Of a stretch of DNA of 35,374 bases, positions 1 through 23,911 are shown piece by piece; positions within the stretch are counted from its first letter, which is position 1, and each line of letters starts with the position of its first letter. Under the pieces are notes generated by a model, which was not told where the DNA came from, did no database searches, and worked only from the letters and a program-made list of their open reading frames with translations. The stretch is from the NCBI RefSeq assembly GCF_022763525.1, contig NZ_JALEGG010000154.1:1-35374 (forward strand), written 5' to 3'. This DNA is from Acidovorax sp. Lineage in GTDB: Bacteria > Pseudomonadota > Gammaproteobacteria > Burkholderiales > Burkholderiaceae_C. The translations under genes and the position numbers were made by a program.

Positions 1-294
1 AGGCGCAGTGGCGTGCACGAGCTGGTCAAGGACGTCTTCCGCGCGACCGCAGCGCGCCTGCGCGCTCTGGGCCCAGATCACGAGGCCGCCGCAGCTCACG
101 TGGAGCAAGCGTCTGCACACTGGATGCGCCACACGGCCGGCACCCACCAAAGCAACAGCATGGACCTGAAGGCCGTGCGCGACAACCTCGGACACTCCAA
201 CATTGCCACGACCAGCATCTATGTGCACACGGAAGACGATGCCCGTCATGATCAGACGTCCAGCGCTCATCGGCTTGGGTGGTCGAGTCTTTGA
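1..294 (+). CDS. Tyrosine recombinase/integrase, C-terminal part (5' end outside window)
   Basis: The reading frame is open from the first base, so the gene starts upstream of the window. The visible 97 residues carry the C-terminal catalytic signature of tyrosine recombinases: an HxxR box (HWMRHTAGTH), then DLKAVRDNLGHSNIATTSIY, which holds the conserved LGH motif and ends in the nucleophilic tyrosine. The nearby text VHTEDDARHD is typical of integrases on proteobacterial integrative elements and transposons. Such enzymes cut and rejoin DNA at specific sites. Its place at the edge of an accessory region fits an element integrase or a cointegrate-resolving recombinase, but the N-terminal half is missing, so the subfamily cannot be decided. 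Family call firm; role inferred. Confidence 0.88.
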   Translation, partial: RRSGVHELVKDVFRATAARLRALGPDHEAAAAHVEQASAHWMRHTAGTHQSNSMDLKAVRDNLGHSNIATTSIYVHTEDDARHDQTSSAHRLGWSSL

Positions 295-383
295 GGGTGA
301 TCACGCCTGATTGACATTCAATATTTGGGCATAAGCGCCTCGTGCCGGAAAATGGCTGCGACGATTTCAAAGGGAGGGAAAAA

Positions 384-1247
384 ATGGCTCAATCTGGGCA
401 GATGCTGCTGCGAGTGTGGGATGTGCAGCATGGCGCATGCGCGATGCTGCATCACCAAATCAATGGCTCAGCAGGGCGCCTTGCCATGATCGATTCAGGG
501 TGCACTGCGACCTGGCGCCCGAGCACTTTCATCAAGTACGGGCTTGGGAGACAGAGGCTCGACTACTTGTTCATTACCAATGCCGACCAGGATCACATGA
601 AGGACCTCCAGGGTCTTTGGGATGAAGGCATTGATGTTCCGGTGTGGTTTCACAATCCAAGCCCAAGTACAGATAACTGGCGGGACATGAAACTCTCGGG
701 CGGCCCACTCACCGATGACGCAAGGCGCTTTATCGCCAATTGCGAAGATTTCCAGGGGACGCCTGCGGAGCCTTTCAATCTGAACATGGGCGGCATTACC
801 TGCACCACGTTCTACAACCCTTATCCGCAGTTCACCAACACCAACGATCTCAGTCTTGTGATTTTTGTCGAATTCGATGGGTTCAAGATCGTCTTTCCTG
901 GTGACATGGAGAAACCGGGTTGGCGGGCATTGCTGCAGCGCCCGGATTTCTGCGCCGAGCTGCGCGACACCAACATCCTTGTGGCGTCTCATCACGGGCG
1001 CGAGAGCGGCTTTTGCCCTGAGATCTTCAACTACTTCACCCCGGATGCAGTTGTGATCTCGGACAAGCCCATCGAACACGAGACACAAAAAATGGTGCCG
1101 GACTACAGCCGGGTCGTGCGTGACAGCGGCGTGCGCGTGCGCAGCACCGGCAAAGACAGGCATGTCCTCACAACGCGACGTGACGGATGGATCCAATTCA
1201 CCGTTTCTGACGGTCGCTACTTCATCGACACGGAGTACGCTGGATGA
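384..1247 (+). CDS. ComEC/Rec2-like metallo-beta-lactamase-fold protein
   Basis: A 287-aa protein starting at the ATG at 384, which has a strong ribosome-binding site (AGGGAGGG) just upstream; a GTG 42 bases earlier is open but less likely. The N-terminal part (LRVWDVQHGACAMLHH) resembles the start of ComEC-type MBL domains. The metal-binding box is TNADQDHMKDL, so the canonical HxHxDH has Asn for the first His and Asp for the second. Later ligands look kept: FPGD near residue 172 and ASHHGRESG near residue 200. There is no membrane domain, so this is a soluble stand-alone hydrolase-like protein, possibly acting on a phosphodiester. Its stop overlaps the start of the following membrane-protein gene by 4 bases, implying coupled translation and a shared function. 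Substrate unknown. Confidence 0.85.
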   Translation: MAQSGQMLLRVWDVQHGACAMLHHQINGSAGRLAMIDSGCTATWRPSTFIKYGLGRQRLDYLFITNADQDHMKDLQGLWDEGIDVPVWFHNPSPSTDNWRDMKLSGGPLTDDARRFIANCEDFQGTPAEPFNLNMGGITCTTFYNPYPQFTNTNDLSLVIFVEFDGFKIVFPGDMEKPGWRALLQRPDFCAELRDTNILVASHHGRESGFCPEIFNYFTPDAVVISDKPIEHETQKMVPDYSRVVRDSGVRVRSTGKDRHVLTTRRDGWIQFTVSDGRYFIDTEYAG

Positions 1248-1909
1248 AGGCTGCTACGACCCGGAGCCTCAAATCGCTCAACATGGTCTGGCTGGTTTCC
1301 GTTGCGCTCGTTGACCTGTTCATCGTGGTTGCTCTGGTGGCTCCCGAGTGGCTTCAAGCCGAATCACTGACACGAGCAGGCATAGGGCGCGTTGCGGCTT
1401 CGATCGCGATGCCGACACTGGTCCTTTTGATGGTCAATCTGCTCCCGCATGATGTCAAAGCAATGCTGGTGTACTGGAAACCGTTGGGCAACCTGCCGGG
1501 CTCTCAGGCGTTCACCAAGCACGGTCCGAGCGATCGCCGGATCGACATGGGCGCGCTCAAAAGGAACGTGGGCGTCCTGCCCAAGGATCCCAATGAGCAA
1601 AACGCCAAGTGGTACAAGCTATACCGACAGGTGTCCAGCGAGACCGAGGTCGCAGAGGCACACCGGCTGTTCCTGTTGTACCGCGACATGGCGGCGGTGT
1701 CGCTGCTTCTTGGTATGACCGTGCCTTTGGGGCTTCTGTATGCCGGCACATCGATTCCCGCTGTGGCGGGGACTGCTGCGCTGTTCCTCGTCCAATACCT
1801 TGCCACGGCAGTTGGTGCGCGCTGGAGCGGCGTCCGCTTTGTGTGCAGCGTACTAGCCGTGCACTCGGCGAAGAAGGTTACGGCGTCAAAGGCCGCCACC
1901 ACGTCATGA
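1244..1909 (+). CDS. Four-helix membrane protein coupled to the MBL-fold gene
   Basis: A 221-aa protein whose ATG overlaps the stop of the upstream MBL gene (ATGA). It has two hydrophobic hairpins: helices near residues 13-35 and 47-68, and near 148-168 and 171-192. The polar loop between them (about 70-145) carries the segments YWKPLGNLPGSQAF, DRRIDMGALKR and PNEQNAKWYKLYRQ. The loop is long and charged and is probably cytoplasmic. I do not recognise a named domain. The 2+2 helix layout with a conserved-looking internal loop is what one sees in membrane effectors of bacterial conflict systems, but that is only an analogy. The tight pairing with the hydrolase says the two proteins act together. 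Confidence 0.8.
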   Translation: MKAATTRSLKSLNMVWLVSVALVDLFIVVALVAPEWLQAESLTRAGIGRVAASIAMPTLVLLMVNLLPHDVKAMLVYWKPLGNLPGSQAFTKHGPSDRRIDMGALKRNVGVLPKDPNEQNAKWYKLYRQVSSETEVAEAHRLFLLYRDMAAVSLLLGMTVPLGLLYAGTSIPAVAGTAALFLVQYLATAVGARWSGVRFVCSVLAVHSAKKVTASKAATTS

Positions 1910-2462
1910 GTCAATACCTTGGTGCTCCATAGCCGACTTCCCGTGCTGCTGGATATAGCCTAACCACCTCACGTGCGGAGGTCTGGGCTCATCATGGCAA
2001 GCATCAGCAGAAAAACGTCGCCCCCGGGGGCATTTGGGGCGCAAAGGCATCGGAGCTCACGCGGGATGCAATTCACGCCTTCAATCTTGAAAGAAAAATT
2101 GCTGGGTATCGCCCCTTCATTCAGTGAATACCAGTCCCGTCAGCACCGAGATCGCTTCGGCATGTTCATACCCAAAGTAAAGACTGTCGCGTAGCCACTC
2201 ACGCGTTGTTCGGCGCAGCCTACGATTTACTGTCGCGCCGTTACTCTGAAGCTCACAGGCCTTCTGTCTCTCGTGGCTTCCAAGACCGCAGCCTTTGCGC
2301 GTTGGTCACTACGCTCACGCTGCTGAGCGCCATCGCTGCTCCGGCACCATGGGATTCAACAGGCCAAATGCCGACAACGGAACTCCGACCACGTTGCATG
2401 CGAATGCCCAGGACAGATTCTGGCGGATCTGGGGTTGTATCGGGAGGAGAACCAGCGCTGAC
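1910..2462. other. Gene-poor stretch, probably decayed DNA
   Basis: No convincing gene is seen in these 553 bases. Short open stretches exist on both strands. One plus-strand frame ending at the TGA at 2125-2127 reads with protein-like composition (including GGIWGAKASELTRDAIHAFN) but lacks a clear start. A minus-strand frame across roughly 2130-2320 likewise reads like a remnant and also has no start. The Fic-domain partner expected downstream of the mobile mystery protein A gene (minus strand, below 2463) is not present in any frame I could follow. The stretch is best read as a scar of past insertions or deletions. Confidence 0.4.
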
Positions 2463-2921
2463 TCACCAAAGGCCACGCTTGCTCACTTTTACCAGCGCAC
2501 TGGTAAGGGCCATCAGCGTCTCTGCATCTGTCAGCACCTCCGTCCCCTTCAACGTGGGCGGCAACGAAATTCCAGCGATCTCTTGAGTACGGTTGAGCAC
2601 CTGCTCCACCAAACTGGTTCGGGGAACAAACATGTAATGCACTTCACAGTCCAGGCCATTGGCCAAACGTGCAAGCGTGTTCAGCGTGATAGTGCCGTTG
2701 GCCTCGGCCTGCTCCAGTTTGCGGACTCCCTGTGCTGTCATGCCCAAACGCTCACCTAGCGCTTTGGAACTCATGCCCAAGGCCAATCTCACCGTCTTTG
2801 CCCAACCACACCTGGGCGTGGCATTCCGCTGCAGCTTCGCGAAATCGCAAAACTGCCGATCAAGTTCGGCCAAGCGGGTGAGATCAAGGGGGTTTTTCAA
2901 GGGGGCAAACGCATGAGGCAA
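2463..2921 (-). CDS. Mobile mystery protein A-type HTH regulator (orphan)
   Basis: A 152-aa protein with one HTH_3/XRE domain: LGMSSKALGERLGMTAQGVRKLEQAEANGTITLNTLARLANGL spans residues of about 48-90. The preceding block (LAELDRQFCDFAKLQ...GWAKTVRLALGMS) and the following block (CEVHYMFVPRTSLVEQVLNRT) match the layout of the family named mobile mystery protein A. That family is normally encoded next to mobile mystery protein B, a Fic-domain protein, with A as probable repressor or antitoxin-like partner. No ATG fits; the best start is the TTG at 2921-2919, so the start is uncertain. A perfect 10-bp inverted repeat overlaps that start, fitting autorepression. The B partner is absent downstream, so this copy looks like a remnant of the pair. 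Confidence 0.8.
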   Translation of the reverse strand: MPHAFAPLKNPLDLTRLAELDRQFCDFAKLQRNATPRCGWAKTVRLALGMSSKALGERLGMTAQGVRKLEQAEANGTITLNTLARLANGLDCEVHYMFVPRTSLVEQVLNRTQEIAGISLPPTLKGTEVLTDAETLMALTSALVKVSKRGLW

Positions 2922-2938
2922 CAGACTGGTTGCCTCAT
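2913..2938. promoter_or_regulatory. Perfect inverted repeat over the start of the HTH gene
   Basis: ATGAGGCAAC at 2913-2922 is repeated in inverted form (GTTGCCTCAT) at 2929-2938 with a 6-bp spacer. The repeat covers the probable TTG start of the HTH regulator on the minus strand and lies between it and the divergent gene at 3079. A further GGCAACC lies close by near 2950. The position and dyad symmetry are those of an operator bound by a dimeric HTH repressor. That the regulator at 2463-2921 binds it is inference. Confidence 0.6.
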
Positions 2939-3078
2939 TAAGCAGATCTGGGCAACCGGTTTATTTCCATTGGGAGACGAGCGCACTTTGAACACAAAAA
3001 CAGCATTCCCGCTGGGATATCTTCGCACGCCACGGTCTCGGACAGGACCAATTGGTCTCATATTAACTTGAATGGCGA

Positions 3079-3519
3079 ATGATGCTGCGTTTGGAAAAAG
3101 CGACTCTTGGAAAATTTGGTGCACAGGACATGATGAGTCTGATCACATCTGGGGGATGGGAATCCATCTTGCCGGATGCGCTGGATGACAACCACCTATT
3201 GTTGGTGTCCGACCAGTTCCGAGACCTTCTGTCTGGTGTTGGCTGCAATGGGGACCATGACCCTGCACGTGCAGCCTTACCGATCACCCTGTTGCTTCTG
3301 TCTAAGGCGGGAGCCAAACGTTCAGGCGATAGCTTGGAAATCTGTCTCGAAACTCTGCAGGAAGCATTGTGCTTACTCAGCACCGCCGTTGATCGGGAGA
3401 TTGTCAATCGGATGCTGCAACGCAAAGATGCCACACCGATTGGTACCGGACTGATACAAGGACTTCAAATGCTGGTTCAGCACGCAGAGGCGCACGCCGA
3501 TTCGGAATGCCACGCCTAA
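3079..3519 (+). CDS. Hypothetical protein
   Basis: A 146-aa protein that I do not recognise. It begins ATG ATG at 3079; a sequence resembling a ribosome-binding site is not obvious. It is mostly helical in appearance, soluble, with no signal peptide or membrane segment, and has leucine-rich stretches (ALPITLLLLSKAG, SLEICLETLQEALCLLSTAVD). It is divergent from the HTH gene at 2921 and convergent with the XRE gene at 3818, overlapping the end of the latter by three bases. The intergenic region toward 2921 holds the inverted repeat at 2913-2938, so it could be under the same regulator. Composition and codon use look coding, but no function can be given. Confidence 0.6.
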   Translation: MMLRLEKATLGKFGAQDMMSLITSGGWESILPDALDDNHLLLVSDQFRDLLSGVGCNGDHDPARAALPITLLLLSKAGAKRSGDSLEICLETLQEALCLLSTAVDREIVNRMLQRKDATPIGTGLIQGLQMLVQHAEAHADSECHA

Positions 3520-3818
3520 TCTGAGGCCATGCCCTTAAAGTCAGCTTTGACGATCTTAAGGAGTTCGCCGACTGAGGTCGCGTCCAACTCCGGGCAGTAA
3601 GCTGCGGCAACGAGCGTCAAAGGGTGGATCTGCATCTGCTCGGCCAACACCTCGATGGTGCGAACACTCGGAACCTGGTGACCTTGCTCGATACGACTGA
3701 TGTGTCGGCGACTGGTGGCCAAAAGCATGTCTTCCTGCACCAAGCCGCGAGCTGCGCGCAATTGCCGCAGCGCCCGACCAAAGTCGGCTTGGGGTGGGAC
3801 ACGCTTTCGGGAAGACAT
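3516..3818 (-). CDS. XRE-family transcriptional regulator
   Basis: A 100-aa DNA-binding protein. The helix-turn-helix domain covers residues of about 12-68: FGRALRQLRAARGLVQED, then ATSRRHISRIEQGHQVPSVRTIEVLAEQM, the classic Cro/CI-type arrangement. A short tail follows (LKIVKADFKGMASD). It starts at the ATG at 3818-3816. Directly upstream is a perfect 11-bp inverted repeat (3835-3873), which also lies upstream of the divergent HAD gene at 3932. The regulator may therefore repress itself and control the HAD gene. Family call is firm; the regulatory link is inferred from position. Confidence 0.85.
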   Translation of the reverse strand: MSSRKRVPPQADFGRALRQLRAARGLVQEDMLLATSRRHISRIEQGHQVPSVRTIEVLAEQMQIHPLTLVAAAYCPELDATSVGELLKIVKADFKGMASD

Positions 3819-3834
3819 CCACCCGATTTCCGCT

Positions 3835-3873
3835 CAATGAGACTAAAAAGACCACGACCAACTAGTCTCATTG
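3835..3873. promoter_or_regulatory. Perfect 11-bp inverted repeat between XRE and HAD genes
   Basis: CAATGAGACTA at 3835-3845 is matched by TAGTCTCATTG at 3863-3873 around a 17-bp spacer, with no mismatch. It sits in the 113-bp divergent region between the XRE regulator (minus) and the HAD-fold gene (plus). This is the expected position for an operator of the XRE protein. Alternatively it could form a hairpin, but there is no following T-run on either strand, which argues against a terminator. Confidence 0.6.
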
Positions 3874-3931
3874 GCTCACTAATTCAGAAGAAATTCATCC
3901 CCTATTGGCAATCTGTTTCTGAAGTAGCACT

Positions 3932-4384
3932 GTGCCCATACTATTTTTGGATTTTGATGGGGTCCTGCACCCAGAGCATTGCCACGAGTCGAAGCACTTC
4001 TGTTGCCTACCCATCTTGGAAGATGCGTTGCGACAGGTGCCAGAGTGCCAAGTCGTGATCACCAGCACCTGGCGCCTGCAGCAATCCTATGAGGATCTAT
4101 TGCAAAGATTCTCTCCGGATGTTGCCGACATGATCGAGGGCGTCACCCCCAGATACTGCGATCTCACGAATGTCCCAAATACGCTGGTGGGGTACGCGCG
4201 GGAGGCGGAGTGCCATGCCTGGCTTTGGGCCAACGAGGTCCCAGATCGCAGCTGGGTGGCGGTGGATGATCGATCGTGGCTCTATCGGCCGTTCTGCAAG
4301 TCGTTGTTTTTGGTCGATGGCCGGGATGGGCTTACGCAGGCCACCGGTTCACGACTGACAGCGCGTCTTCAAAACCTCCTTTGA
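3932..4384 (+). CDS. Small HAD-fold protein (HAD domain of the Swiss Army Knife RNA-repair type)
   Basis: A 150-aa protein starting with GTG at 3932. HAD motif I is right at the N-terminus (LFLDFDGVLHP), motif II is probably ITSTW near residue 44, and an acidic motif lies in AVDDRSW near residue 112. This layout matches the small HAD domains described in Swiss Army Knife RNA-repair proteins and found as stand-alone genes in many proteobacteria. HAD enzymes usually remove phosphate from a substrate; here the substrate is unknown. The gene is divergent from an XRE regulator with a perfect inverted repeat between them. A decayed copy of its 3' part occurs at 20443-20637, next to the transposase gene, so the gene travels with this mobile region. 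Confidence 0.78.
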   Translation: MPILFLDFDGVLHPEHCHESKHFCCLPILEDALRQVPECQVVITSTWRLQQSYEDLLQRFSPDVADMIEGVTPRYCDLTNVPNTLVGYAREAECHAWLWANEVPDRSWVAVDDRSWLYRPFCKSLFLVDGRDGLTQATGSRLTARLQNLL

Positions 4385-4404
4385 CAACTCCTTCATTGCT
4401 TTGA

Positions 4405-4590
4405 CCTGCGGCAATTGAGAGCTTCTTCGGTCCCTTGAAGGCCGAGTATTTCCGTCTTGCAGCTCCTAACAACATTGATTCGCTCGAAGCGGGCGTGCAT
4501 GATTACGTCCGCCACTACGACCATGAGCGCATCAAGCTCAGACTGAACGGCCTCTGCCCGAGGGCATACAGGTTGACAAACACCGCCTAG
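4405..4590 (+). pseudogene. IS3-family transposase (OrfB) C-terminal remnant
   Basis: After a TGA at 4402 the plus frame reads about 60 codons to TAG at 4588. The translation (AIESFFGPLKAEYFRLA, then HDYVRHYDHERIKLRLNGLCPRAYRL) is the end of an IS3-type rve integrase: the SFFGxLKxE block with its catalytic Glu and the YNxxRxxxxLxGLxPxxYR tail. Nothing of the upstream catalytic domain or of OrfA precedes it; the HAD gene ends only 20 bases before. It is therefore a truncated insertion sequence. It shows that the HAD gene and the lipoprotein gene were brought together or trimmed by IS activity. Confidence 0.85.
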
Positions 4591-4685
4591 TTGGCGGGAT
4601 GGCAACCTTCCAACTTCTATGGGCAGTTCAATCCCGGTCCGATTCACCTGCGCCAGCGGTAGCAAGACTACTTAAAGGAACTTTG

Positions 4686-5060
4686 ATGATAAGAAAAATG
4701 GTTTTCTCGTTGGCTGCAGCTTTGGGATTCTTGATGATTTCCGGCTGTAGCACCCCTGTCTACGAAAACCGATACGCTGTGTCCGAAGGCTGGAGAATCG
4801 GCAAAGTAACCAGATTAGTCACCGCAGATGAATTCTTTAAGGGGGGCGGCTCTCGATGCCGGGGACTGGAGATTCGCCCCACCGACCATTTTGTATTCAT
4901 CCAAACGCAACCGACCCGAGCGCGTGGGCACTTCGCCAAAGTCGATCCTGGCTCCGGCTTATCAGTGGGTGATGAGGTGTACTTTAACGCGTGGAAGTGT
5001 GACGAGCCTCAAGTAGTGCCCAAGGTCCCCCATGGGGACAAGACGGGGCGTACGGAGTAA
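4686..5060 (+). CDS. Small lipoprotein of unknown function
   Basis: A 124-aa protein. The ATG at 4686 follows a ribosome-binding site (AAAGGAA) and gives a clean lipoprotein signal: MIRKMVFSLAAALGFLMISGC, with the lipidated Cys at residue 21. The mature part is short and mostly beta-like (WRIGKVTRLVTADEF, DHFVFIQTQP, SVGDEVYFNAWKCDEPQVVP), with two further Cys residues. I do not recognise the family. The start is placed here rather than 87 bases upstream because only this start gives the signal peptide. It stands alone downstream of an IS3 remnant. Confidence 0.65.
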   Translation: MIRKMVFSLAAALGFLMISGCSTPVYENRYAVSEGWRIGKVTRLVTADEFFKGGGSRCRGLEIRPTDHFVFIQTQPTRARGHFAKVDPGSGLSVGDEVYFNAWKCDEPQVVPKVPHGDKTGRTE

Positions 5061-5468
5061 CGTGGTGCCTGACTCCTTCTCACGGTGCACCTGAATGCTC
5101 TACGCTGACAGCATCGCATCACGATAGTTTGTCCCCGCCCGCACAACATCAAAGCAGACAGGAGACTACTTGTTGACTTAGGGCGGCAACAGGCATAGTT
5201 GATTGCTCTGCGCGCCGCAATATCCGGTAAAGGTTCGGCTGCTCTCCGAGCGTTCGAGACGCACATCGGTGACATGGTGCCCATCACCATGGAGGAGTTT
5301 GCGCTGTGGTCAGTTTCACTTCGTTGGCATAGCTCATGTTAGGGGCAAGCGGCAGGGCCACCAAGCAGCGTTCAGTCTCAAAATGTCGGTATCCCGCACG
5401 ATCACGGTCCGTTGCTGCAAATCAGGCTCTGTGAGCTCTTCCTTCTTAATTGGGCTCCTCCTCCAACA
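5061..5468. other. Region without a recognisable gene
   Basis: No supported gene is seen in this stretch between the lipoprotein gene and the 17-bp transposon-end-like sequence. One plus frame (TTG at 5199 to TAG at 5340-5342, 47 codons) reads with protein-like composition, including ALRAFETHIGDMVPITMEEF, but has no ribosome-binding site and no recognised relative. It may be a fragment of a lost gene. The longer plus frame from 5203 has an unlikely residue composition. Confidence 0.35.
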
Positions 5469-5485
5469 GAAACCGAGATCACCCC
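5469..5485. repeat. 17-bp Tn3-type end sequence, left copy
   Basis: GAAACCGAGATCACCCC at 5469-5485 is identical to 23933-23949, the outer end of the Tn3-family transposon, and is in the same orientation (read inward from the right: GGGGTGATCTCGGTTTC). Tn3-family ends begin with GGGG. The match stops after 17 bp. This copy therefore looks like the right end of another, related element lying to its left, or a product of rearrangement. The stop codon of cadA (5479-5481) lies inside it. Confidence 0.6.
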
Positions 5486-7806
5486 GAGACGCCTGATGTC
5501 GGTACCGGCGATTCGCGGTTTTCCCGAAGCAGTCGCAGGCCATTGCCCACCACCAAGAGGCTAGCTCCCATATCGGCAAACACCGCCATCCACATAGATG
5601 CATTTCCGAGGACCGCGAGAACCAGGAACACGGCCTTGATTCCCAACGCCAAAGCAATGTTCTGAAAAAGAATACTACGGGTGCGTTTTGAGAGCCTTAT
5701 GACCTCAGGAATGCGGCGCAAGTCATCATTCATGATGACAATGTCTGCTGCCTCCATGGCAGTGTCCGTCCCCGCAGCACCCATTGCAATGCCAATGTTG
5801 GCGCGAGCCAATGCCGGGGCATCGTTGATACCGTCACCAGTCATAGCGGTAGGACCGTACTGCGCTTGCATCTTCTCGATGGCCGCCAGTTTGTCCTCCG
5901 GCAGTAGGTTCCCTTGCGCCTCGTCGATGCCAGCTTGGCTGGCGATGGTCTCGGCAGTGGACTTGTTGTCCCCCGTCAGCATGACCGAAGCGACGCCCAG
6001 CGCGTGCATCTGGGCGATGGCTTCGCGGGAGCTGTCCTTGATGGTGTCGGCGACGGCAAAAATGGCAAGCACTTCGCTGGTACTGGCCAGCAGCGTAACG
6101 GTGCGGCCCTGAGCTTCCTGCGCCTTCAACTGGACCTCAATGGCCGGAGTGCAGAGTCCCCGCTCTTCAATGAGCCGGTGGTTTCCCAGGATGAGGCGTT
6201 GACCCTCCAATTGGGCTTCCACCCCTCGGCCCGCGAGCGCCTTGAAGTCGCTCACGTTGCCTCGACCAGCCCCCAATCCTTGCGCGATGGCTTTGGACAC
6301 TGGGTGATCAGACTGTCCAGCCAGATCTGCAGCCCAGCCCAGTATCTGGCCCTCAGGAAGTGATGTGGACAGAACTTGTTGGGCCACCAGCTTGGGCTTA
6401 CCCTCCGTGATCGTTCCAGTCTTGTCGAGTGCGATGGCCTTGAGCTTGTGTGCATCTTCCAGGTACACACCGCCTTTAATCAGAATGCCGCGCCGAGCTG
6501 CAGACGCCAAGCCGCTGACCACCGTGACAGGTGTTGCGATCACGAGCGCGCATGGGCATGCTATGACCAGCAACACCAGAGCCTTGTAGAGAGCTTCGAT
6601 CCAGGTAAGGCCCATGAACAAAGGGGCCAGCACCGCCACCAGCAAAGCCATTGCAAACACCGCTGGGGTGTAGATGGCGGCAAACCGATCCACAAACTGC
6701 TGCGTGGGGGCGCGTGAGCCCTGCGCCTGTTCCACTGAGTGGATGATCCGCGCCAGCGTGGTGTTGCTGGCCTCGGCCGTGACCTTCACCTCCAACATGC
6801 CGGTTTCATTGATCGTTCCGGCGAATACAGGGTCACCCTGCGCCTTGTCCACGGGAATGCTTTCACCCGTGACTGGCGCCTGGTTCACCGCGCTGTTCCC
6901 ACTCGCCACCGTGCCATCCAGCGGAATGCGTTCGCCAGGCTTGACCCGAACGACAGCGTTGAGGGGAACCTCTGCAGCCCCAACGCTGAGCCAGGTTCCA
7001 TCATCCTGGCGGACATCTGCCGTATCCGGCGTGAGATCCAAAAGGCTCTTGATGGCGTTCCGCGCGCGATCCACTGCGCGAGCCTCAATGAGTTCGGCAA
7101 TCGCGTACAAGGCCATGACCATAGCCGCCTCGGGCCATTGACCTATGAGGAAGGCGCCTGTCACGGCCACAGTCATCAGCGCATTGATGTTCAGGCGCCC
7201 CTTGAGCAGTGCGGAAAAGCCTTTGCGGTAGGTTGAGAAGCCCGCAAGCCAGATAGCGGCAGCGGCAATGGCCATGCCGATTCCCTTAAAGACCAGCGTG
7301 TCAGGCGAGAAAAATGCCACCGCTTCTGCGGCGATGGCCAAGCCCAGCGCCAATCCCATGCGGCCCAGGCCTTCGGGCTCTGGCTCGTGCCCGTGTGGAT
7401 CACCGCCGGGGACCGCTGCAGCCAGTGGCTGCGGGTCAAATCCAGCCTTACGTATCGCCTCCACGGCCCGAGGAATCACGTCTTCGGGGGCGTCGATGGT
7501 CAACGTGCGCGCCCCCAACTGAAACCCGAGTCCTCGCACCCCCGCCACCAGTTCAAGGGCCCGGCGGATTTCACTCTCCTCAGCGGCGCAGTCCATGGCA
7601 GCGATGCGGAATGTCGTGCCCTTCGACATGCGCGCCGGAGCTGCAGTGGCAGGAGTTGCAGAGTCCAGGCTCGGCGCGCAGCAAGCATTCGAGGCAGGTG
7701 CCGCAGTGCCGGAGCAGCAGCCAGCATCCTGTGCGGTAGGCATCGCAGAGGCGTTGCAAGGTGTCTTCGGATTGGGTTTTGTTTCTTCGTTGCAGCAGGA
7801 CGTCAT
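5479..7806 (-). CDS. cadA: P1B-type heavy-metal ATPase (Zn/Cd/Pb exporter)
   Basis: A 775-aa inner-membrane pump that uses ATP to export divalent soft metals. The start is the ATG at 7806, after AAGAAAGAC. The N-terminus has Cys pairs (CC at residues 4-5, 30-31 and 42-43), then a heavy-metal-associated domain with MDCAAEE at about 71-77, the Zn/Cd-type variant. Later come the TGES box, the membrane CPC motif in VIACPCALVIATP, the phosphorylated Asp in DKTGT, the P1B mark SDHP and the hinge GDGINDAPAL, followed by two more helices. All key motifs are intact. The last 13 or so residues (after NGLRLLR) look unrelated to the family and end at a stop inside the 17-bp transposon-end sequence. It has its own MerR-type promoter at 7832-7862. 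Confidence 0.95.
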   Translation of the reverse strand: MTSCCNEETKPNPKTPCNASAMPTAQDAGCCSGTAAPASNACCAPSLDSATPATAAPARMSKGTTFRIAAMDCAAEESEIRRALELVAGVRGLGFQLGARTLTIDAPEDVIPRAVEAIRKAGFDPQPLAAAVPGGDPHGHEPEPEGLGRMGLALGLAIAAEAVAFFSPDTLVFKGIGMAIAAAAIWLAGFSTYRKGFSALLKGRLNINALMTVAVTGAFLIGQWPEAAMVMALYAIAELIEARAVDRARNAIKSLLDLTPDTADVRQDDGTWLSVGAAEVPLNAVVRVKPGERIPLDGTVASGNSAVNQAPVTGESIPVDKAQGDPVFAGTINETGMLEVKVTAEASNTTLARIIHSVEQAQGSRAPTQQFVDRFAAIYTPAVFAMALLVAVLAPLFMGLTWIEALYKALVLLVIACPCALVIATPVTVVSGLASAARRGILIKGGVYLEDAHKLKAIALDKTGTITEGKPKLVAQQVLSTSLPEGQILGWAADLAGQSDHPVSKAIAQGLGAGRGNVSDFKALAGRGVEAQLEGQRLILGNHRLIEERGLCTPAIEVQLKAQEAQGRTVTLLASTSEVLAIFAVADTIKDSSREAIAQMHALGVASVMLTGDNKSTAETIASQAGIDEAQGNLLPEDKLAAIEKMQAQYGPTAMTGDGINDAPALARANIGIAMGAAGTDTAMEAADIVIMNDDLRRIPEVIRLSKRTRSILFQNIALALGIKAVFLVLAVLGNASMWMAVFADMGASLLVVGNGLRLLRENRESPVPTSGVSG

Positions 7807-7831
7807 GTTGGTCTTTCTTCTTGATGACTTG

Positions 7832-7862
7832 ATTGGAAACCTTAAAGCTACTCCAAAGTCAA
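7832..7862 (-). promoter_or_regulatory. MerR-type promoter of cadA
   Basis: Read on the minus strand, TTGACT (-35, 7857-7862) and TCCAAT (-10, 7832-7837) are separated by 19 bp, the long spacer typical of MerR-regulated promoters. Between them lies an imperfect dyad with half-sites ACTTTGGAG and CTTTAAGGT. It sits 26 bp upstream of the cadA start. The MerR regulator encoded at 8537-8989 is the obvious activator. The promoter at 8481-8511 has the same -10 and a matching half-site. Confidence 0.75.
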
Positions 7863-8015
7863 GCCCTTCTTTGCTCCCGCGCGCAGCCTCTGCGGTGGAA
7901 TCGCGGTCATCCGTCCATGCACCGGATAGCAAAGCGAGTTTCGAAACAATCATCGAAGTTGCCCAGGATCGCGTGTCGGCATTGCCGTACGAGGCCGACT
8001 TTTTGGGGGGATTCG

Positions 8016-20892: not shown

Positions 20893-23841
20893 CTAACCTG
20901 CGCGGACTCGTTTTTCAGGGGTTTGGGACCGCAAAAGCACACCGGCATACCGGTGAACACTGAAGCTCATGACCCCCCGGAAATTGATGTGCCCGAAGTG
21001 CACTGGGCCGATGCGACGCAGCAGGTTGTCCTCAACGCGTTGGCCGCCTGACTTCAGCCGTTCTACCGTCTCCTGCAACTTCATGGTGTTCCAGGCAATC
21101 ACCATGTTCGTCAAGAGCGCGTGCGCGCCAGAAATCGACTTGAGTTCATCACGGCGTCGGCCGCGCTCGGCCGTGACGCGTCCGTAGTAGATGGCACGCT
21201 GCAATTGATGAACTGATTCGCCTCGATTGAGGAGGGTGTGGATTTCCCGCCTGAAAACGTCATTGGTGAAGTAGTCACACAAGAAGACGGAGCGCAGCAG
21301 GCGGCCAAACTGGTCCAGGCAACGGCGCACGTCGTCTCCAGCAGCTGCGCTGCCGTGCCGAGCCAGGGCCCAGGCCACACTGACACGCCCCGATTTGATG
21401 GAGGCGATCAGGCGCATGGTTTGATCCCAGCCTTCTCGGATGGCTTTTTCCGTGATAGCGGGAATCACCACTTTCTCCAGGGCCTCTGGGATCTTGATCG
21501 AGCGGGGCACCCAGAGTTTGCAGTCAGGCAGGCCCGCCAGTTGCGGACACAAATCGAATTTCAGTAGCTTGGCCACGCTCATGCCGGAATAGGTGTAGCC
21601 GTGCGTATCAACGGCCAGCAGATCGACCTTTATACGATCCTCACTGTTGGAGTTATAGGCGTCGATTCCATGAACGGCTGGCGCATCCTGGCGCGTCATC
21701 AGCACAATAGGCTGGTCGAATATGACGGGGTAACTTCCCAGGATATGGGTGTAGATGCCAGCGGCTGCAGTCTTTCGGCGAGGATCGGTTCGCGCAATGG
21801 ACAGATGGCGCGTCGCCTCCAGCGCCATCATGTCTGAAGAGGCTTTAGTGCCATCACTCCAGAGCTTTACGATGGGAAACCTCTGCTGAAACTCGACCAC
21901 GCTGTCGTTGGCCGACCGCAGGCGGCCAGGCGCTTCCAGCATGCGCATGGCTGCGGAAACGTGGCTCACCGGAACCCCTGGAATCATCGAAGCTGCCGCC
22001 TTTGCGTCGATTTCAGTGCCATGGGCGAGCAAACCAGCATACAAGGCAACAAGCTCCTCAGCCGTCTCGGGCTGGCGCCCCAGCAATGACATGCTGATCT
22101 GGGTGCGGCTGTCGATCTCCAGGATGATGTCCGGCAACTGCGTCGTGCCGATGGTTTCGCTCAAAAACCGGTTCGTGCGTTGCAGTTCTGGTTCCTCCTC
22201 CAGAGCCCTAATGGCCGGAATTCGCACCGAACCATCTTCATCGATCTCAAGCAGGCCTTTCTCCAGACCGATCTCAACATCGGCCAACCCGGCCCGCAGC
22301 AATTCATACTGAAGATCCAGAGCTCTTCTTGGATCCAGTTCCAAACCATAGGCTTCGCACAGGGCCTGTTTGTTCCGGTCCCATTCCTCCTGAGGGATAA
22401 GCAGGCTCTCTTTGCTCTTGTATGTCGCGCTGTGGTTCACATAGAGGCTGCCCCCGATCAGACCCTTGCGAATACGCCACAAGGTACACCCTTCAAACGC
22501 ACGCAGAGCTGCTGCTCGGTCGGGAACCTCCAGCAAGGGACGCCACTTTGGTTCCACCAGCGAGGTATCAAAATCCGCCGGCAACTCTTTGGCCCCGGCT
22601 GCCTGTAACGCTTGGAGTGCACCGAGCAGTTTGCTGTCTTCGTGCGCCGGGTCAGCTTGCAAGTCCAGGCTGCTCATTCCATTCAGGATAGTTCGAACCC
22701 GCGTTGTCTGCTCAGTCAGTGTCTCCCTTACAACCTCGGCGCGGCTGACTGGAGGGAGACTCAAAACGCCTTCTGCCAGGACAAGGATTGCCGCTAGGCG
22801 TTCCTCGGCATCCATGTCCGTATTTTGCGCAAGGGCTCTCATCGATTCAATGGAATCGCGGTAGTGGCTGGCACGCTGCGCTTGTTTGGCTTGAACGCGT
22901 TTTGTCCCGGAACCAATGATGTCGCTGGTATGCCGGTTATTGCGGAAGATCGCCTCATCAGTCAGTTCTCCCAGGAGGTGCTTGAGGAAGCAGACGATTT
23001 CCACGGAGCGGGTGTCTTCCACTCTGCGAGCTGTCTCCGACGGCGGGCGGTTCACCACGGCTTGGGCGAACGCGTGAATGCGCCCGATAGAAAGTTCTTG
23101 GAGGTTCCACAAATGGACACCGAGTGCCTTTAAGGCATCGATTCGTGAGTTGACCTCCTTCAAAGCTTTCAAGCTGTGTTTCCCCGCCGATTGTTTGAGC
23201 CATTCGAGGACTGTTACCCCGGGTGTCACACTCTCCTCATGCATGACTACGAGCACAGCTCGCAGCCGCACTGGGGTCACTGCAGTGCGAATGGTGGCAA
23301 GGGCCAATTCTTCGACAGCTTTGAACGCGGACCGCGCAAGATCCTGAACGACCCGTTTGCCAGGCATGATGATCTTGTTGTCGAAAAGCCATTGTTCGGC
23401 AGAAACGCAAATTTCATCCACTGACGCCGCATCGAGGGCTTGCTGGGAAAGAGCAGCTTGCAAACGAGCTTGGGCGCTGGCATCGAAATCAGAAAGCTCC
23501 AGCGTTTGTTGAACCCAGGCGCGATGGTTGGCTAGCGTGCGATCAGCGTTCTGGTACAGCGCTTTAAGAGACGCGATGGCTGTGGTGCTGATGTTGAGCT
23601 GTCCGCACAACATACGCAGCATTTCGGGAGGCATCCTGAGCTTGCCATCTGGGTTCCTGCCGGTGAGCGCAACGAAGGCCAGTTGGACAGCCAGCCCAAG
23701 GTAGTAGCGCTTACCGTAGTTGCTACCCTGGATTGCTCCGATCAAATGTGCGGGGAGACGGCAGTGCAACTGAACGTCGTCAGCATTTAGCCCCGAGGGG
23801 AGTTTTTCGTAACCAACGAACCTGTAACGGTAGCTCGACAT
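20893..23841 (-). CDS. tnpA: Tn3-family transposase
   Basis: A full-length transposase of 982 aa starting at the ATG at 23841, preceded by GAGGAGG; an upstream in-frame start would add nine residues without a ribosome-binding site. The N-terminal domain (YRYRFVGYEKLP, then YGKRYYLGLAVQLAFVALTGR) is the DUF4158 type. The C-terminal DDE domain shows the first Asp in LWSDGTKASSD, the second in VDTHGYTYSGM and a Glu-containing block LLNRGESVHQLQRAI. It ends at TAG (20893). It catalyses replicative transposition of the element ending at 23949. The gene starts close to that end. No tnpR, tnpI or tnpS-like resolvase gene lies beside it. It appears intact and probably active. Confidence 0.95.
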   Translation of the reverse strand: MSSYRYRFVGYEKLPSGLNADDVQLHCRLPAHLIGAIQGSNYGKRYYLGLAVQLAFVALTGRNPDGKLRMPPEMLRMLCGQLNISTTAIASLKALYQNADRTLANHRAWVQQTLELSDFDASAQARLQAALSQQALDAASVDEICVSAEQWLFDNKIIMPGKRVVQDLARSAFKAVEELALATIRTAVTPVRLRAVLVVMHEESVTPGVTVLEWLKQSAGKHSLKALKEVNSRIDALKALGVHLWNLQELSIGRIHAFAQAVVNRPPSETARRVEDTRSVEIVCFLKHLLGELTDEAIFRNNRHTSDIIGSGTKRVQAKQAQRASHYRDSIESMRALAQNTDMDAEERLAAILVLAEGVLSLPPVSRAEVVRETLTEQTTRVRTILNGMSSLDLQADPAHEDSKLLGALQALQAAGAKELPADFDTSLVEPKWRPLLEVPDRAAALRAFEGCTLWRIRKGLIGGSLYVNHSATYKSKESLLIPQEEWDRNKQALCEAYGLELDPRRALDLQYELLRAGLADVEIGLEKGLLEIDEDGSVRIPAIRALEEEPELQRTNRFLSETIGTTQLPDIILEIDSRTQISMSLLGRQPETAEELVALYAGLLAHGTEIDAKAAASMIPGVPVSHVSAAMRMLEAPGRLRSANDSVVEFQQRFPIVKLWSDGTKASSDMMALEATRHLSIARTDPRRKTAAAGIYTHILGSYPVIFDQPIVLMTRQDAPAVHGIDAYNSNSEDRIKVDLLAVDTHGYTYSGMSVAKLLKFDLCPQLAGLPDCKLWVPRSIKIPEALEKVVIPAITEKAIREGWDQTMRLIASIKSGRVSVAWALARHGSAAAGDDVRRCLDQFGRLLRSVFLCDYFTNDVFRREIHTLLNRGESVHQLQRAIYYGRVTAERGRRRDELKSISGAHALLTNMVIAWNTMKLQETVERLKSGGQRVEDNLLRRIGPVHFGHINFRGVMSFSVHRYAGVLLRSQTPEKRVRAG

Positions 23842-23911
23842 CAGCGTCCTCCTCAGTCCGGAAGGCACTATAAATCGAAGCTAAGTTGTTGTCGCTAGAC
23901 AGTTTTTTGCC

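Follow-up and report, generated by a model that had tools for sequence, protein, structure and literature searches.

What is the small gene pair at the start of contig NZ_JALEGG010000154.1 of Acidovorax sp. (assembly GCF_022763525.1), and does it serve in conflict with phages or plasmids? The window analysed here is the stretch from position 1 to 35,374 of this contig, 35,374 nucleotides read on the forward strand. It holds a gene for a metallo-β-lactamase (MBL)-fold protein (384..1247, +; ATG at 384, stop at 1245-1247, 287 residues) followed by a gene for a membrane protein with four transmembrane (TM) segments, here called the TM protein (1244..1909, +; ATG at 1244, stop at 1907-1909, 221 residues). 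A Shine-Dalgarno-like AGGGAGGG, read from the sequence, lies ahead of the MBL gene (371..378, +), and the MBL stop overlaps the TM start in an ATGA (1244..1247, +). The first-pass annotation had described two such overlapping genes directly after a tyrosine recombinase, and the coordinates agree: a C-terminal recombinase fragment, context outside the module, occupies 1..294 (+; Pfam PF00589, Phage_integrase, E = 1.7e-9), the rest of the gene being cut off by the contig start at base 1 of the window. We find that the pair joins an enzyme half known as the PADLOC candidate PDC-M48B to a membrane partner without a family model. By analogy we tentatively read it, with somewhat less than even confidence, as a two-gene anti-phage or anti-plasmid conflict module, a membrane-tethered ComEC-like DNase.

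The association extends well beyond this genome. One genome per species was searched with an alignment of the membrane protein alone, and in the 39 loci obtained an MBL gene is the immediate neighbour of the TM gene in 37 and lies within two genes in all 39, so that the adjacency of homologues, set beforehand as the test of the pair, is borne out. The next-gene partner belongs to MBL1, the family of the window's enzyme, in 27 loci, to MBL2 in six (L070-L074 and L076; L and G numbers are our labels for loci and genomes), to MBL4 in three (L050, L064, L075) and to MBL5 in one (L048). In L055 and L057 an E2-E1-JAB gene adjoins the TM gene and an MBL3-like gene comes after. Among 300 genomes of the order, the TM protein occurs in six besides the window's own, with an MBL gene adjoining in 6/6, and close MBL1 proteins (E <= 7.2e-50) occur in five, each with a TM gene in the same cluster; three of these order genomes recur among the 39 loci. 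Across 398 genomes of the phylum the distribution is patchy, with the TM protein in four, the window's own counted; the other three are G704 (with MBL4), G835 (with MBL3 and E2-E1-JAB) and G728. One other phylum genome (G627) has a strong MBL1 match, beside a different membrane protein, and six further weak MBL1 matches lie in frames of about 800-900 residues. On viral-classed contigs MBL adjoins TM in 4/4 loci, one of them the same sequence as L070. A recombinase directly upstream of the pair was not noticed by eye in relatives among the loci listed. Because both frames are kept in tens of homologues and the pairing is recovered from single-protein searches, we take it to be more than chance.

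Furthermore, the pairwise distances of MBL1 and TM proteins co-vary, with r = 0.866 for 27 adjacent pairs and r = 0.748 for 14 stand-alone pairs (Mantel p = 1e-4, the floor of 9999 permutations). Left out of the 27-pair test were L038 (partial MBL), G120 (not in both alignments), L046 (truncated) and L070-L072, in which MBL1 is not the TM neighbour. A 97/97 branch of the TM tree sets the E2-E1-JAB-linked members apart on one side, and the MBL1 tree needs three changes for this linkage, with one not excluded. Identical TM proteins (L059, L060, L063) occur in Nevskiaceae, Allochromatium of the Chromatiaceae and a metagenome-assembled genome (MAG) of Thermoflexus, Chloroflexota, which indicates either recent transfer or MAG mixing or contamination.

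By profile and predicted fold, the enzyme is nearest to the Mn-dependent nuclease domain of ComEC. It matches PADLOC PDC-M48B (PDLC04674) at E = 3.6e-48 over residues 7-274, and Pfam Lactamase_B at E = 0.0011, under the cut-off. The top Foldseek match of its AlphaFold2 model (pLDDT 89.8, pTM 0.90) is the MBL domain of Moorella ComEC (9ic4; E = 2.8e-14, TM-score 0.65/0.70), with Pce/CbpE second (E = 3e-10), and ComEC chains also lead when profiles of 8 and of 32 sequences are compared with solved structures, where Pce/CbpE is matched as well.

The classical MBL box is HxHxDH, from which the window's motif II, TNADQDH (576..596, +; residues 65-71), differs at two positions. N66, D68, D70 and H71 of this motif, D174 of a Gly-Asp motif (900..905, +; residues 173-174) and H203 and H204 of a Ser-His-His-Gly motif (987..998, +; residues 202-205) are each present in 32/32 aligned MBL1 homologues; N154 is invariant too and aligns to an Asn of ComEC. 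According to excerpts of PMC8579336, the MBL domain of ComEC acts as a phosphodiesterase and nuclease that depends on Mn2+; it has Asp for one His in motif II and Asn for His in motif III, and almost no activity is left when the two Asp of motif II are replaced; these two correspond to the invariant D68 and D70 of MBL1. Because an Asp at the second position is normal for ComEC-type domains, the sole departure from ComEC motif II is the change of the first His to Asn (N66), and its presence in 32/32 MBL1 homologues marks it as a family trait and not decay. The first-pass annotation had noted this box with its Asn and the GD and SHHG motifs, all of which are there, and had been cautious about metal binding; that caution was right and can now be sharpened in these terms. 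MBL4 (L050, L064, L075) and MBL5 (L048), which partner the same TM family, have His at the N66-equivalent position. A degenerate, inactive enzyme was rejected on the constancy of N66, the intact remaining ligands and the His of MBL4 and MBL5, and the residues suggest that the metal site is oxygen-rich and probably active.

The partner has no match above chance in Pfam, NCBIfam or PADLOC, and the four PADLOC matches that 46 TM homologues give at E <= 0.01, on three families, are weak or odd. It is a four-helix membrane protein, as had been proposed: four hydrophobic peaks, at about residues 24, 59, 158 and 182, accompany AlphaFold2 helices at 9-32, 44-64, 134-166 and 171-209 with short helices between (mean pLDDT 83.1, pTM 0.78). 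Its N-terminus, middle and C-terminus are net positive and are therefore predicted to lie in the cytosol. The central, probably cytosolic domain (1442..1672, +), delimited by invariant alignment columns and charge, carries conserved K72, W78, P85, D97, R99, N120 and W123, and an invariant R147-D148 lies just beyond it, before TM3. Invariant positions across 41 sequences further include L9, P57, F90, L105, L126, L144, R198, V200, V203 and L204; L074, whose start lies inside a mis-joined open reading frame (ORF), was left out of the TM alignments. Comparison of the model with solved folds gave 264 Foldseek matches, none at E <= 0.001, and a MotA/PomA fold was rejected at TM-scores under 0.3.

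Related enzymes are also found beside membrane proteins of other kinds. PADLOC PDC-M48A was found once in 274 genomes of the class (G337, L111:1367-2954), as a 170-residue protein with three hydrophobic peaks whose gene overlaps an MBL4-type (PDC-M48B-type) gene, an arrangement that suggests the composition of PDC-M48 to be a membrane protein plus an MBL. Five distant MBL1-like plasmid genes in opened records (Agrobacterium, Sphingobium, Halobacterium, Adhaeribacter and Polymorphobacter; four further records were left unopened) are accompanied by a membrane protein with 3-4 hydrophobic peaks, encoded by the next gene, or by the next but one in Halobacterium. L134, like these plasmid loci (L137-L141), has such a protein near its MBL1-like gene, and the arrangement in G627 is alike; the MBL neighbour in L110 shows no clear TM peak (none over the threshold of 1.6). 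Similarity of these other membrane partners to the window's TM family is not detectable by sequence, and hhalign probabilities of 2.2% or less do not support homology. Both halves can be swapped while the pairing persists, and we read this as an indication that the link to the membrane is important to the enzyme.

The surroundings of the relatives are in part mobile and include conflict genes. Relatives lie on plasmids, viral-classed contigs and integrase-bearing stretches, and PADLOC finds AbiEi/AbiEii (L041, L072), type I restriction (L076), a type IV enzyme (L049), a type II methyltransferase (L073), HmaC (L070) and a TIR/SEFIR-like protein (L071) near pairs; WYL regulators occur in L050, L071, L074, L078, L080, L113 and L134. 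At 1e-5, pair neighbours (133 proteins scanned of 136 selected ORFs, three antisense to TM being left out) match 302 PADLOC families versus 56 for controls (139 proteins), a difference that is a hint only, as it counts families rather than proteins, includes alternative MBL partners and comes with matches in the control as well. Around stand-alone loci we see AbiE (L041), type IV (L049), a methyltransferase-like gene with a WYL regulator and an E2-E1-JAB gene (L113), and matches to AbiD, MzaA and MzaC, members not named; the commonest Pfam family there is Phage_integrase (5/150 proteins). The expectation that the pair avoids housekeeping loci holds overall, given the E2-E1-JAB, restriction, AbiE, integrase, plasmid and viral-classed settings, and is weaker for the 16 stand-alone loci, whose defence matches come from few neighbours.

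A recurrent setting is the ubiquitin-like E2-E1-JAB operon. E2-E1-JAB lies directly upstream in 15 of the 39 TM loci, 13 times in the order E2-E1-JAB, MBL1, TM and twice as MBL3-like, E2-E1-JAB, TM, and MBL3 was detected before E2-E1-JAB in 11 of the 13. Prok-E2_A was not found in the window's genome (G000), nor overall in 14 of 17 stand-alone-pair genomes (G000 counted; drafts and MAGs), on which ground a need for E2-E1-JAB in trans was rejected. In a Pseudomonas syringae plasmid (L079:4429-8603), MBL3 and E2-E1-JAB look broken up into numerous short frames, and the TM gene remains.

The MBL protein ends in a glycine (codon GGA, 1242..1244, +), as do 32 of the 39 MBL1 rows (duplicates counted), in which the residue before it varies. 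Of 18 rows of MBL3 beside E2-E1-JAB, 15 have Gly as the last residue, the other three ending in AG or HG plus 1-3 residues, and two more MBL3 loci show one GHG end and one HG plus three residues; several MBL3 rows are near-copies, and rows of 190 residues or less were left out of this list. Tails of the ..RAG, ..SHG or ..GHG kind are found in L054:5712-6866, L055, L056, L078, L080, L081, L113, L131 and others, and could be E1/JAB substrate tails. None of the MBL2, MBL4 or MBL5 rows ends in Gly. We considered whether the MBL1 glycine is a mere by-product of the ATGA overlap, and rejected this on a comparison of overlaps. The 'pair' class, set by a crude rule, holds 23 ATGA overlaps, namely 20 MBL1-TM cases, all ending in Gly, one MBL5-TM case (L048, Lys) and two unrelated ones (Arg, Pro), versus 3 Gly ends among 43 in the 'other' class, or 1/41 without L103 (MBL1-TM) and L065 (MBL3-E2-E1-JAB); the sequences compared are related, so these are not independent events. 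The glycine is also kept without an overlap in L072 and L081. It is absent from distant MBL1-like proteins (L134, L137-L141), although L134, L138 and, by eye, probably L137 have E2-E1-JAB in the operon, and this weakens the glycine idea for MBL1.

In type II CBASS (cyclic oligonucleotide-based antiphage signalling system), excerpts of PMC10097602 describe a cGAS with a conserved terminal Gly or Ala, through which E1-E2 conjugates it, and a variable penultimate residue. The analogy suggests that MBL3 is the conjugated protein in E2-E1-JAB operons, and its C-terminal glycine offers a direct test of what these operons, reported in 2006, conjugate. A broader picture combines this with the swapping of partners: ComEC-like MBL nucleases linked to small membrane proteins, mostly of a 2+2 helix layout, may form a distinct, widespread and undescribed defence class (several MBL families, at least three partner groups without detectable sequence similarity, bacteria and a haloarchaeal plasmid), in which MBL3 itself would, in E2-E1-JAB operons, be a ubiquitin-like modifier conjugated through its conserved C-terminal glycine like cGAS. 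We regard this combined claim as doubtful, and the missing glycine of the distant MBL1-like proteins lowered our confidence in it slightly further.

For the window's pair itself we propose the following mechanism. A ComEC-like, probably Mn2+-dependent phosphodiesterase or DNase would be held at the inner membrane by its dedicated four-TM partner, whose conserved cytosolic middle domain would bind and restrain it. An infection cue, sensed at the membrane or through an associated system such as E2-E1-JAB in relatives, would set the enzyme free, and the DNA it then cuts could be that of the entering phage or, in an abortive response, DNA at large. Computation gives the pairing, the co-variation, the fold relationship, the conserved metal site, the predicted topology and the mobile setting of relatives; the complex, its gating and trigger, the nuclease activity and the anti-phage outcome are what we infer.

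Several observations weigh against this proposal. G728 holds a TM gene with no MBL found in 12 kb. On plasmids (6 of 21 records with TM and 8 of 12 with MBL were opened) MBL is next to TM in only 2 of the 6 TM records (L081, and weakly L077); in three others (L078, L079, L080) MBL3 and E2-E1-JAB, whole or fragmented, lie no more than about 4 kb away, and in Rahnella plasmid CP042360.1 (L135, L136) two IS4 transposases and two other genes separate MBL1 from a shortened TM gene over about 4.7 kb. The co-variation may stem from joint transfer without interaction, and the first motif II His is, after all, replaced by Asn. The defence context has its own weak points. In the window no other defence gene was noticed in the ORF list by eye or with 15 query families, whose matches there are confined to the pair and, at a weak level, the recombinase. 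At 1e-8 none of these families turned up in 20 hand-chosen control stretches of 18 kb; the control is lenient, the queries having been drawn from the pair loci themselves. Defence genes occur in only some of the 16 stand-alone loci, whose neighbours (150 of 159 proteins scanned, nine left out for size) match 48 PADLOC families at 1e-20, each of the 25 listed matching one protein.

The same evidence bears on other explanations. Small multi-TM effectors are common in defence, and the membrane protein could itself be the killer, a pore or membrane disruptor like the CBASS 2TM/SLATT-type effectors, with the MBL as regulator or activator. Two of the 46 TM homologues do match the PADLOC '2TM' effector, at best at E = 0.0072, but this is chance level; many invariant residues of the TM protein are polar and fall within the part predicted to be cytosolic, which resembles a domain for binding or sensing, and the MBL metal site is invariant as in a catalyst, so that we think this unlikely, if the first alternative to consider. 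A toxin-antitoxin or addiction pair that stabilises mobile elements would suit the coupling of the two genes and the presence of relatives on plasmids, viral-classed contigs and integrase-bearing stretches. We consider it rather improbable, as both proteins are large for classical toxin-antitoxin pairs, the TM protein pairs with several MBL families and the pair is built into E2-E1-JAB operons.

The substrate might also be something other than DNA. Phages reportedly carry anti-CBASS and anti-Pycsar nucleases, among them the MBL-fold nuclease Apyc1, and some of our pairs lie on viral-classed contigs; the enzyme could therefore hydrolyse a nucleotide signal or small phosphodiester, as a signalling brake or as counter-defence like Apyc1. 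Yet its best structural relative is ComEC, no cyclase or CD-NTase was noticed beside the pair, where no search aimed at one was made, and two TM queries had no match in 50,697 phage records, which leaves this reading with a low probability. We give an equally small chance to a non-defence envelope role, such as that of a phosphodiesterase for lipids or teichoic acids that resembles Pce/CbpE and has a membrane anchor. Pce/CbpE is indeed matched both by structure, in second place, and by profile, but no signal peptide is evident by eye, the conserved domain of the partner is predicted to be cytosolic, and the patchy distribution and the E2-E1-JAB or restriction neighbours are ill-suited to housekeeping.

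Some further features of these loci deserve mention. Downstream of the pair the window holds XRE regulators, a HAD_SAK_2 protein (PF18143; 3932-4384) and, by eye, metal-resistance genes, among which a large ORF resembles a Tn3-family transposase (20893-23868). A HAD_SAK_2 protein is also near the pair in G120 (L113:12192-12776). In Acidovorax sp. NB1 (L038:519-3512), whose TM protein is 89% identical, a P-type metal ATPase directly follows the pair; in the window (1244-7953) about 3.5 kb with the XRE regulators and HAD_SAK_2 lie between the pair and such an ATPase. Elsewhere, an inovirus-like element with a Zot-family gene (L109:4190-7452, IMGVR_UViG_2737471629_000002) has an MBL1 and TM pair slightly downstream, and 39 phage records match that Zot-family gene. 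In L133:1-7410, MBL4 and TM are near genes that by eye resemble a kinase, a PP2C phosphatase and VWA proteins.

How does the pair compare with known systems? The first-pass annotation knew no named system with this exact pair; that stands for the partner, which lacks a family model, and for the literature, where search terms found no open-access paper naming the pair, and does not stand for the enzyme, which is PDC-M48B. MBL partners of the TM family in L064, L048 and L050 match other PDC-M48B models (1.9e-113, 4.3e-148 and 4.6e-148). The partner differs from PDC-M48A, with no match for the window's TM protein, 0/46 TM homologues matching at E <= 0.01, and an hhalign probability of 0.2% against the G337 protein, at which identity with PDC-M48A was rejected. 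PDC-M48A model PDLC04672 was not found in G000, other PDC-M48A models, if any, being searched only through the PADLOC scans of TM proteins; PDC-M48A was found in 0/7 genomes tested, and no control genome matched either. The term PDC-M48 itself was found in no paper of the open-access literature searched.

The closest analogues, beside PDC-M48, are the gated nuclease-protease pairs HamM, Avs1a and canu. According to excerpts of PMC12799240, a ComEC-like MBL gene is joined there, too, to a partner gene and has been taken up by defence systems unrelated to one another, and related MBLs paired with proteases are demonstrated defence nucleases. Their partner is a protease, whereas the window's is a four-TM protein without a protease match, and HamM has 42 kDa in that account versus 287 residues for the window's MBL, which would leave little room for two gating insertions, disordered and placed over the active site; mean pLDDT in blocks 201-210 and 231-240 of the model is 67 and 66. 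Membership was rejected for Avs1a (model 15.1 bits versus a cut-off of 420), ComEC (13.2 bits versus 190) and LmuA (a weak match, 5.1e-06). Because the partner test failed, we file the pair neither under PDC-M48 nor under the nuclease-protease pairs. If our reading is true, membrane proteins would be a third kind of partner for defence-acquired ComEC-like nucleases, beside trypsin-like and caspase-like proteases, and a membrane-protein family without a model would gain a functional context.

The claim of an undescribed system has to be narrowed in one respect, as MBL genes in E2-E1-JAB operons have been on record since 2006: the directly upstream E2-E1-JAB of the 15 relatives recalls the E2-E1-JAB plus MBL operon type 6a of Iyer et al. 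2006, in excerpts of PMC1779556, and the Polaromonas and Xanthomonas plasmids opened here appear to be the Pnap and Xaxo of that paper. The window differs from type 6a in lacking a triple-module E2-E1-JAB gene next to its MBL gene, and the excerpted account of 6a mentions no membrane gene. ComEC/Rec2, finally, is a multi-TM competence channel with its MBL domain in the same protein, whereas the window's MBL is a separate protein with only MBL-type matches and its four-TM partner has no Pfam match. The two nevertheless share the MBL fold, the metal residues with the one substitution at N66, and an MBL domain that, for the window's pair on the reading proposed here, works with a membrane part.

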